NCBI RefSeq assembly: GCF_000019905.1
Contig: NC_010556.1
Location: forward strand, 894,001 to 958,000
DNA from: Exiguobacterium artemiae 255-15
GTDB lineage: Bacteria > Bacillota > Bacilli > Exiguobacteriales > Exiguobacteriaceae
DNA length: 64,000 nt
Direction of reading: 5' to 3'
The translations under genes and the position numbers were made by a program. Shown in pieces: positions 31,596 through 33,684 of the stretch. Each line of letters begins with the position of its first letter. Positions within the stretch are counted from its first letter, which is position 1. The notes under the pieces are model-generated. The model did not search any database. It saw only the letters and a program-made list of their open reading frames with translations, and was not told where the DNA came from.

Positions 31596-32549
31596 ATGGA
31601 ATTACATGCGAAAGTGACACGTGTAGCGTTAATTGGGGCGGGGGCTGTCGGTTCAAGCTTTGCTTATCAGATGTCAACGGCAGGATTGTGTGAAGAATTG
31701 GTTATCATCGACGTAAATAAAGCCAAAGCGGAAGGCGAAGCGATGGATTTAAATCACGGAACACCATTCAGCTCTTCTCCGATGCGGATCTGGGCAGGGG
31801 ATTATTCAGACTGCAAAGAAGCGGAAGTGATCGTCATCACAGCAGGCGCGCCACAAAAACCGGGTGAAACCCGACTCGATCTTGTTGCTAAAAATGCGTT
31901 AATCATGAAAGAAATGGTGCGTCAAATCATGGAGTCCGGTTTTGATGGCATCATCGTTGTTGCCTCTAATCCGGTTGACATCATGTCCCACTTAGCTTGG
32001 AAATATTCCGGTCTTCCGAAATCCCGTGTCTTTGGCTCAGGAACGGTTCTGGATACGGCACGTTTACGCCAAATGCTCGGTGAATACTTCCACATCGATT
32101 CCCGTAATGCCCATGCGTATATTCTCGGTGAGCACGGGGACACCGAATTTGCAGCCTGGAGCAACTCCCGGATCTATGGTAAAACGATTGATGAATTGTT
32201 AGCGGAAGATGACCGATACTCGCAAGCGGATCTTGATCAGATTTATATCAATGTCCGCGATGCAGCCTATCATATCATCGAACGAAAAGGTGCGACGTAT
32301 TATGCAATCGGACTTGGACTCGTTCGAATCGTCCGGGCGATTCTTGGAAATGAGAACTGTCTTTTGACGGTCGGTGCGCACGTCGACGGTCAGTATGGAA
32401 TTTCCGGGATTCATATCGGCGTCCCGGCAATCATCAACCGGCAAGGGGTCCGGGAAATCATTGAAGTTTCTTTAACGGAAGAAGAATTGAAAAAATTCCA
32501 TCACTCAGCAGAAGTGTTACGGCAAACGATGGAACCTGTCCTTCGCTGA
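31596..32549 (+). CDS. ldh: L-lactate dehydrogenase
   Basis: 317 residues, cytoplasmic, reducing pyruvate to lactate with NADH. It shows the Rossmann loop [13 protein letters not shown] (about residues 14-26), DLNHG, the NPVD motif and the active-site His in GEHGDTEF (about 180-187). The substrate-type residues agree with LDH rather than malate dehydrogenase. GAAAGGTGG precedes the ATG. It is monocistronic and lies inside an otherwise Bacillus-like yqg gene block. Confidence 0.95.
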
Positions 32550-32595
32550 GTGGAAGGCAAATGCTCCATCCGTTGCTTTCGATCTGCCTGAAATG

Positions 32596-32641
32596 AAAAG
32601 ATCAGTCCATTTTAGCCATACAAAAAGGACTGATCTTTTTG
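32596..32641 (+). terminator. Terminator of ldh
   Basis: A perfect 13-bp stem, AAAAGATCAGTCC with GGACTGATCTTTT, T5; the loop also holds CCATAC which can pair with GTATGG beyond. Confidence 0.92.
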
Positions 32642-32742
32642 TATGGAAGAATCTCGATTAAACTAGGTTTTATTTTACTAGAAAAAGGTTATGTAAAGGA
32701 TAGAAGAGTTTTTGATGGCATCGCATTCAATAGTAAAAACGC

Positions 32743-33153
32743 TTGAACTATCTCCATCTACGCTATGCTAAGAGGTGAAGGATTCCTGAGTTATCCAACC
32801 TATTGGTCGGAAATTTATCAGGCTAACCCCGTCGTCCCGACGGTTGGATCTTAATCTTGCCAGTTTCTTTTGTGCGGACGCCTACTCTGCTTGGTTTTCG
32901 CTACTTCAGTCATCCGCAAGGTGAACGTTGAAGATTTTACGTGACAGACGAACTTCCTGTCACAACCTTATACCTTCAGTTTTTAAAGAACACGACATAT
33001 TATTTATTCCTGGTTTTAAGTGTTTTCAAACCGAGAACGTGTCGGGCAATTGACGTGTCGTAAGACACGCCTTGCCCGAAGGCGATTCATCTCCCACCTA
33101 CGCTGGGCTTCGCCTGAGACAATTAGAGGTGAGAGTATTCTCGACTAATTCTG
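32743..33153 (-). mobile_element. ORF-less structured element with IS200/IS605-like ends; candidate TnpB-type guide RNA relic or MITE
   Basis: This is the only gene-free stretch over 300 bp. It contains many helices (plus coordinates): 32785-89/32818-22, 32793-800/32842-49, 32829-34/32838-43, 32874-78/32913-17, 32941-47/32957-63, 33042-49/33072-79 enclosing 33054-59/33064-69, and 33091-99/33127-35. The first two cross, a possible pseudoknot. Read on the minus strand, the element ends GGAATC, hairpin, AGTTCAA at 32743, which resembles IS605 right ends and TnpB omega-RNA 3' ends. A similar hairpin stands at the other end. No TnpA, TnpB or IscB sequence is visible. Element boundaries and strand are inferred. 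Confidence 0.45.
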
Positions 33154-33174
33154 ATAAAGGGGAGAAAGACAGTC

Positions 33175-33684
33175 ATGTATACATTTCGGAAGTTAACGAA
33201 AGAAGATGCAGAACAGTATTGGAGTCTTCGACTGGAAGGATTAAAAAATCATCCAGATGCGTTTGGTCATTCGTTTGATGATGAACAACAAACACCGATT
33301 CAGGATGTTCAAGAAGGACTGGAAGGCGGTCCGGATTCTGATGAAATATGGCTCGGAATATTTGACGGTGAAAAATTATTCGGGTTCGGACAGGTCAAAT
33401 CGTTCGAATTATCACGGGAGTCGCATAAAGCGATGATTTCCGGCGTATATGTTTCACCGGATTATCGTGGCGGAACGGGTCGTGCTTTGATGGAAGCTTT
33501 GATTGAAGAAGCAAAACAACTTCCTGATGTCGAACAAGTCATTTTGGCGGTACTTTCCGGTAACGAGGCAGCGCAAAGTCTGTATGAATCACTTGGATTC
33601 GAAGTATACGCGGAAGATCCGGATTCCGTTAAATTGGAAGATGGGACGTACCGGGATGATATTTGGATGAAGAAATACGTCTGA
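33175..33684 (+). CDS. GNAT family N-acetyltransferase
   Basis: 169 residues with the GNAT acetyl-CoA motif A (GVYVSPDYRGGTGRAL, about residues 92-107) and motif B (NEAAQSLYESLGF, about 125-137). The N-terminal YTFRKLTKEDA is typical of the superfamily. The substrate cannot be told from the sequence. AAAGGGGAG precedes the ATG. The gene starts 21 nt after the structured element ends, so its transcription may depend on sequence within the element. Confidence 0.88.
   Translation: MYTFRKLTKEDAEQYWSLRLEGLKNHPDAFGHSFDDEQQTPIQDVQEGLEGGPDSDEIWLGIFDGEKLFGFGQVKSFELSRESHKAMISGVYVSPDYRGGTGRALMEALIEEAKQLPDVEQVILAVLSGNEAAQSLYESLGFEVYAEDPDSVKLEDGTYRDDIWMKKYV

Follow-up and report, generated by a model that had tools for sequence, protein, structure and literature searches.

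A non-autonomous IS200/IS605-type insertion in Exiguobacterium artemiae joins a TnpB omega-RNA scaffold to a conserved RNA domain that opens with a boxA-like sequence

Within the window (the whole 64,000-nucleotide stretch of the Exiguobacterium artemiae 255-15 genome that was analysed), a lactate/malate dehydrogenase gene (ldh, 31596-32549) and a GNAT acetyltransferase gene (33175-33684) neighbour a 411-bp element that occupies positions 32743-33153 and is oriented along the minus strand. A long hairpin just 3' of the dehydrogenase gene (32592-32643), likely a terminator, is ordinary and lies outside the element. The parts of the element and its immediate surroundings are the following.

32743-33153, minus strand: whole element, 411 bp, with its 5' or left end (LE) at 33153 and its 3' or right end (RE) at 32743; defined by empty sites and 22 copies
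33154-33158, minus strand: TTTAT target motif and presumed TAM, present once in empty and filled sites alike
33071-33153, minus strand: left end, delimited by comparison with the left ends of resident elements
32853-32993, minus strand: conserved 5' RNA domain (covariance model R1), based on covariation and model matches
32977-32991, minus strand: boxA-like sequence GTTCTTTAAAAACTG, from sequence comparison with rRNA leaders
32929-32978, minus strand: helix A (32978-32972 with 32935-32929), enclosing helix B; covariation
32941-32963, minus strand: helix B (32963-32957 with 32947-32941), followed by a conserved CGTAAAA; covariation
32874-32917, minus strand: helix C (32917-32909 with 32882-32874), with the cap GCGAAAACCAAGC at 32901-32889; covariation
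32743-32846, minus strand: omega-RNA scaffold and right end, common to resident tnpB elements at 85-90% identity; covariation
32843-32829, minus strand: hairpin P1, corresponding to the last tnpB codons
32785-32822, minus strand: helices P2 (32822-32818 with 32789-32785) and P3 (32811-32805 with 32800-32794); covariation
32743-32786, minus strand: end made of GGAATC, a terminal hairpin and AGTTCAA, seen in the sequence, in the copies and in tnpB elements
32723-32742, minus strand: flank placed by the empty-site alignment, putative guide

A preliminary description of this DNA, made from its letters alone, had pointed to the orthologous ldh-GNAT interval as the place where an empty site might be found, and four relatives (G017, G004, G013 and G011) have one. 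Their uninterrupted site, which reads ...AAAACGC-ATAAA-GGGGAG..., fixes the boundaries exactly, the inserted DNA being precisely 32743-33153; on the GNAT side, 141-142 bases of flank match the window at 97.9-99.3% identity. On the minus strand of the empty site TTTAT is directly followed by GCGTTTTTACTATT, with one difference in G013, and the first 14 nt of the 32723-32742 flank stand after TTTAT in three of the four relatives (13 of the 14 in the fourth). Because TTTAT is single in both empty and filled sites it is not a duplication; against all four empty sites, the element lies 3' of TTTAT and target duplication is absent. IS200/IS605 transposition likewise inserts DNA 3' of a fixed motif and duplicates nothing.

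Three full-length copies are found by BLAST in this genome and, among the loci collected by then, a search of this genome and its relatives yielded 22 full-length copies at 22 different sites. All but one of the 22 end in TTCAA, each then continuing into different DNA. TTTAT stands before 18 of them, and before the remaining four the motif differs by a single letter (TTCAT, CTTAT and, in two cases, TTTAC). Seven copies in a genome of another genus (G335) diverge from each other immediately after TTCAA, and three copies in G328 immediately after TTCAC. Copy number ranges from 0 to 9 across 38 genomes of the family, which, together with the covariation described below, differs from what the preliminary description had named as opposing cases, a syntenic region of constant copy number or a lack of covariance.

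No protein gene is present in the element, a non-autonomous insertion of the IS200/IS605 type. When ORFs of at least 30 aa with an ATG, GTG or TTG start were listed, none longer than 42 aa lay wholly within 32743-33153, and neither that listing nor TnpB queries over element loci revealed a transposase or tnpB gene in the element. Its minus strand folds at -132.3 kcal/mol (z -4.48), a value that none of 100 shuffles equals, and the plus-strand fold is weaker (-114.9, z -2.09, with 2 of 100 shuffles as good). The dense structure and the lack of a convincing ORF that had first drawn attention to this interval are thus both borne out.

The right end has the sequence and structure of a TnpB omega-RNA scaffold. 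Its last ~104 nt match eight further sites in the same genome at 85-90% identity, seven of which adjoin a tnpB frame that ends there; next to the eighth, at C1:1412835, is a fragment resembling tnpB (48% over 92 aa). The encoded C-terminus is ..TVGTTGLA at six of these sites and ..TVRTTGLA at one, and the P1 RNA, CCGTCGGGACGACGG, equals the DNA of the last tnpB codons, so that the right end retains the end of the tnpB coding sequence as an RNA structure. GGAATC, a hairpin and AGTTCAA do stand at 32786-32743 on the minus strand, as originally reported, and their proposed likeness to the end of a TnpB omega-RNA or IS605 right end agrees with the seven own-genome tnpB elements whose frame was read: all seven share an end of this type, one of them with GAATCT for GAATCC. 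Across 17 elements (alignment A4), 97.6% of the cells in P1, P2 and P3 are paired and double compensatory changes are seen at 14 of 17 pairs, values that 0 of 500 shuffles reach; when the pairings are slid, only 35-44% of cells remain paired. A4 holds 17 of 28 anchored elements, those left out (L041, L092, L097, L105-L108, L110, L111, L114 and L117) having a scaffold that is absent, cut, of another type or not anchorable.

The tnpB genes of this genome (L004-L008, L170 and L172) offer a view of the same hairpin from the protein side. Their last codons, for ..VGTTGLA or ..VRTTGLA and the stop, double as P1, and the C-terminus of TnpB is therefore probably shaped by RNA structure.

The middle of the element is a separate conserved RNA domain, absent from the preliminary description. 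Its order is boxA, helix A enclosing GGGGTTG (AAGGTTG in the window), helix B, CGTAAAA, and helix C with its cap. Over 15 sequences (alignment A3), 93.3% of cells in the three helices are paired, as against 32-44% in slid versions, and double compensatory changes affect 16 of 22 pairs (0 of 500 shuffles). A3 comprises sequences found by then and omits L019 and further near-identical Exiguobacterium copies, together with L066 (no boxA), L071 (helix B partly missing), and L070 and L072 (broken). A further 46 matches (44 distinct), for the most part not those of A3, give 96.0% paired cells and double changes in 13 of 22 pairs (0 of 500 shuffles); their alignment was fitted to the model and its members were chosen by the exact helix A motif, so that helix A is invariant in it. 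This alignment also seems to overlap A3 by at least one locus, from Anoxybacillus tepidamans (L322).

The cap GCGAAAACCAAGC is identical in all 15 A3 rows save for one base in one row. Two loci, L175 of G328 and L109, carry it in the terminal loop of helix B instead of helix C (as GCGATAACCAAGC in L109), and this ability to change its host helix suggests that the cap is a docking motif rather than a spacer. Long-range pairings of the type GGUU/AACC or GUUG/CAAC, considered by eye, fail in several sequences. Descent of the middle from a decayed tnpB was rejected, since comparison with the tnpB elements of this genome at E 1e-2 gives no match to the domain. Also dropped was the idea that AAGATATAG, which to us resembles a group I core segment, is one, since this stretch covaries with ATCTT as helix A.

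At gathering thresholds no Rfam family lies over the element, either in the window, where two tRNAs are found elsewhere, or in 20 related loci. Relaxing the limit to E values of up to 10 gives 11 sub-threshold hits, ten of them at 32550-32661 on the ldh side. The only one that overlaps the element, Ref70, has an E value of 0.28 and scores 21.7 bits where the cut-off is 115. The HEARO model, to which the preliminary description had looked and which we take to be among the Rfam families, accordingly finds no counterpart here. The same searches bear on an IStron-like reading, according to which the 5' domain would be a ribozyme that splices the element from host transcripts. The architecture of an RNA module combined with IS ends is the same, and Firmicutes examples described in the accessible passages of PMC4227781 include copies without an ORF; however, a group I intron is as absent from the Rfam results as any other family, and at the 22 rejoined sites the longest sense stop-to-stop frame across the junction measures 121 aa, three longer junction frames (147, 238 and 447 aa) being antisense. 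With no long sense frame across the rejoined junctions splicing would repair nothing, which makes this reading highly improbable.

Judged by sequence identity, the 5' domain opens with an rRNA-type boxA antitermination sequence. Two sister copies have GTTCTTTGAAAACTG at the boxA position, and at eight sites of this genome that resemble rRNA leaders the sequence is GAACTTTGAAAACTG (seven sites) or GGACTTTGAAAACTG (one site), with CTTTGAAAACTGAA common to the two copies and the eight sites and one change from it in the window copy. The domain of the sister copy at C1:243099-243239 opens with GTTCTTTGAAAACTGAAGAT, from which the window copy differs at 2 of 20 bases, one of them in boxA. Searching this genome for GTTCTTTGAAAACTG with at most 2 mismatches returned 23 matches, versus 12 for the backward control; the 23 consist of three elements, eight sites that have CTTTGAAAACTG and share a leader sequence, and 12 further matches. 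At each of three leader sites scanned with Rfam, out of the eight, a 16S rRNA gene begins 113 bases after the start of the match; both the position and the sequence are those of boxA. The window copy contains exactly the string GTTCTTTAAAA, the form in which the boxA preceding a CRISPR array of Legionella is written in the available text of PMC7862264.

In 13 of 28 elements the 45 bases 5' of the domain contain an extended -10 that agrees with TGnTATAAT at 7 or more of 8 positions; among 851 control windows taken from these loci the proportion is 1.5%. The window copy, matching at 5 of 8 positions, is not among the 13; a promoter scan of the window element gave a single hit, inside the domain, and none at the right place, and promoter-like hits over the region number 1, versus 1.2 in shuffles.

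The domain is widespread. At class level R1 finds a match in 52 of 398 genomes, representing 33 of 145 genera, and in a set of 398 genomes drawn from the phylum it does so in 13, both counts including this genome; G014, G155, G232, G295, G328, G335, G374 and G563 have at least seven or eight matches each. The weakest matches (30-40 bits) were inspected as single sequences only, and some matches, including some of the weakest, have no recognisable scaffold downstream. One weak match (L112:1501-1660, 37 bits) precedes a hairpin resembling a terminator, with no omega-RNA recognisable behind it, and is possibly a leader domain alone, or a relic. The exact motif together with R1 places the domain in Peribacillus, Priestia, Lederbergia, Paenibacillus, Domibacillus, Sporosarcina, Heyndrickxia, Gracilibacillus, Geobacillus, Anoxybacillus, Lysinibacillus, Metabacillus, Oceanobacillus, Neobacillus, Evansella and one Bacillus subtilis strain. 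A 19-base pattern found 67 matching stretches in genome contigs and 3 exact matches in viral contigs; R1 confirmed 42 of the 52 tested (49 not titled Exiguobacterium and the 3 viral ones) and none of the 3 viral matches, while the seven genome stretches that it rejected came from metagenome bins named outside Bacillota (six) or from an 'uncultured bacterium' (one), a useful negative control. Plasmids of Peribacillus asahii, Bacillus arachidis and Brevibacillus halotolerans also carry the middle domain (~66-82% identity), each time followed by a scaffold-like stretch and with no gene listed under the match in a gene table that is incomplete.

Three overlapping options had been put forward for the element. 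A stand-alone omega RNA and a PATE/MITE mobilised in trans both fit, whereas a relic that lost tnpB is not our main reading, given the strong compensatory change and the multicopy families of the element RNA in several genera. A stricter version of the second option would treat the element as an ordinary PATE or MITE in which only the DNA ends matter, as substrates of TnpA, the RNA-like interior being functionless cargo. Both the ends and the mode of insertion agree with this, and the genome contains a short relative near C1:1644570-1644750 that has LE and RE without the middle. It is nevertheless the interior that is better preserved in the Peribacillus plasmid, where the leader is 82% identical and the ends 66-73%, and the double compensatory changes in leader (16 of 22 pairs) and scaffold (14 of 17 pairs), unmatched in 500 shuffles, also speak against cargo; we thus consider this version unlikely.

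Shorter or divergent members of the family deserve mention in their own right. At G000:C1:1644571-1644746 (L366:172-347), a stretch of ~175 bp has an LE match (74%) directly next to an RE match (77%), lacks the middle domain and is a possible plain MITE of the same family. Three large Herelleviridae phages, phiNIT1 (L043) and KKP_4049 (L045) of Bacillus and iF6 (L044) of Enterococcus, carry LE (80.6%) or RE (70-73%) of the element family. The RE match of iF6 overlaps the 3' end of an annotated transposase gene whose product is 66% identical to a TnpB of the family; in phiNIT1 and KKP_4049 a 374-aa hypothetical protein is encoded between the ends, next to pghP in phiNIT1.

The two ends of the window element have different affinities within the genome. 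LE shares 84% identity with the left ends of two elements that have a Y1 tnpA gene (L168 and L169). A second group, whose members have tnpB only, is at least about as close: identity is 83-88% in four of them (L360-L363) and, over 40 nt, 98% in a fifth (L364). Compared with the tnpB elements that share its RE, LE is 69-75% identical in three and 86% identical over only 28 nt in one, with no match at E 1e-2 in four further ones; conversely, RE matches none of the second tnpB group of this genome. As LE is close to the tnpA elements and the second tnpB group, and RE to the first group, the element, on these identities, combines a left end from one resident group with a scaffold that belongs to a different one.

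TnpB is present in all 18 element-bearing genomes tested and Y1 TnpA in 15 of them, this genome included; Y1 TnpA was not detected in G004, G188 and G232. In the family, TnpB accompanies the element in 11 of 11 genomes, and the element is found in 0 of 4 genomes that lack TnpB, counts that by themselves are too few for significance; the median tnpB count is 8 with the element versus 2 without (Mann-Whitney p 1e-4, uncorrected for relatedness). No tnpB lies in cis with the element scaffold: 20 TnpB queries gave no tnpB-like match at E 1e-8 in 107 element loci (73 of at least 3 kb, 12 of 1.5-3 kb and 22 shorter, some fetched twice), with a positive control of 4 out of 4.

TldR is a TnpB-derived regulator with a guide RNA that has been recruited by the host, and a stand-alone guide-RNA-like unit with no nuclease in cis could be a regulatory guide RNA of this TnpB-derived kind. 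Such a role fits poorly with many copies in differing flanks, with empty orthologous sites, with the lack of a fixed guide at one locus among the 22 copies and with the 107 loci devoid of a tnpB-like match; the chance that it applies here seems to us very small.

The relationship of the scaffold to resident tnpB genes was assessed by comparing the 3' domains of 13 elements (one per genome, this one included) with 74 tnpB 3' regions, a partial sample of tnpB. Six elements match a sampled tnpB 3' end at 85% identity or more over 72-170 nt, those of G000, G400, G188, G374 and G232 in their own genomes and that of G155 in another genome. Identity reaches 94% over 170 nt between the G400 element and its own tnpB, the G232 3' domain has a slightly better match in G374, and the G231 element is 77% identical to its own tnpB 3' end over 104 nt; matches are weak for G310, G335 and G295, and no useful one was found for G563, G617 and G328 among the partly sampled tnpB 3' ends. 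The elements of G400, G604 and G583 have a scaffold different from the Bacilli ones, with 43%, 37% and 48% identity to the window as against 72%, 57% and 60%, respectively, in the leader. The correlation between leader and scaffold distances is weak in a set of 20 elements (Mantel rho 0.31, p 0.006). We read these comparisons as pointing to partial co-inheritance with scaffold exchange, the leaders of G604 and G583 being themselves weakly alike.

Taken together, the element is probably a non-autonomous IS200/IS605-type unit that makes its own TnpB guide RNA, relies on TnpA and TnpB in trans and carries an antiterminating leader; its transcription, the use of both proteins in trans, guiding in trans and antitermination are what we infer. 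Its movement, as single-stranded DNA, and its insertion 3' of TTTAT would both depend on TnpA encoded by other elements of the cell. An RNA would be read on the minus strand from inside LE toward RE, beginning with the boxA-bearing structured leader, passing through the omega-RNA scaffold and exiting into the flank, whose first ~14-20 nt would serve as the guide. Because the guide is outside the element, the polymerase must leave the element, and boxA and the helices of the leader would let it cross the structured untranslated RNA and do so. The 5' domain would thereby occupy the place of the tnpB frame and contribute processive antitermination of a nut-like kind, as well as 5' protection; antitermination is, from its sequence, the most likely role. 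Resident TnpB would process the RNA, cut the TTTAT-flanked empty site (TTTAT followed by GCGTTTTTACTATTG) and help to keep the element; processing by TnpB is shown for tnpB mRNA in the available part of PMC10278001. On a broader scale, and with somewhat less than even confidence, such elements may be phylum-wide guide-RNA satellites in which one leader, a nut-like module for antitermination and expression, has been repeatedly joined to different TnpB ends and scaffolds and carries the guide RNA into any flank where it lands, living off the TnpA and TnpB of others.

TnpB guide RNAs are usually described as products of tnpB mRNA, and here the guide RNA seems to be an element in its own right, with a leader kept across many Bacillota genera. 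This raises the questions of whether TnpB acts in trans for satellites, how a guide is transcribed from outside the element and whether boxA serves mobile guide RNAs as it does CRISPR. Natural scaffolds free of the tnpB coding constraint may also aid guide RNA design. The literature search found no description of the leader, its boxA, its spread or its pairing with different scaffolds, a novelty that is provisional as key studies on TnpB-PATEs, OMEGA systems, IStrons and CRISPR boxA were outside its coverage; the accessible portions of PMC11870625 and PMC12558985 hold no passage relevant to the element.

Non-autonomous IS200/IS605 elements and stand-alone omega-RNA loci are known kinds that the element fits or resembles. 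TnpB-associated PATEs have reportedly been described from Geobacillus. The PATEs of Haloquadratum are non-autonomous IS200/IS605 elements, according to the available text of PMC3119063. Like PATEs, the element has IS200/IS605-type ends, no ORF and a clean insertion, and is presumably mobilised in trans; unlike them, it has a covarying 5' RNA domain with boxA, found in 33 of 145 genera of the class, and an extended -10 in 13 of 28 cases. Stand-alone omega-RNAs of IscB, said to have been reported by Altae-Tran in 2021, are likewise guide RNA loci with no nuclease in cis, but the scaffold here is of the TnpB type and has no HEARO match in Rfam. As in the TnpB omega-RNA presented in the accessible part of PMC10278001, the scaffold ends at RE, the guide would lie outside the element and the sequence is that of resident tnpB 3' ends. 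The scaffold of the element differs in standing outside a tnpB mRNA, with a non-coding leader rather than tnpB coding sequence on its 5' side. IStrons, as portrayed in the available passages of PMC4227781, similarly combine an RNA module with IS ends of several types. By contrast, no group I intron is found in the element and long sense-strand frames are not interrupted by it. boxA in the leaders of CRISPR arrays was reportedly described by Stringer in 2020. In those leaders, as far as the accessible text of PMC12691694 and PMC7862264 extends, boxA precedes a long untranslated guide-RNA transcript, as it would here; the present boxA differs in belonging to what is probably a mobile TnpB-type guide RNA of Bacillota, where it is joined to a specific structured domain.
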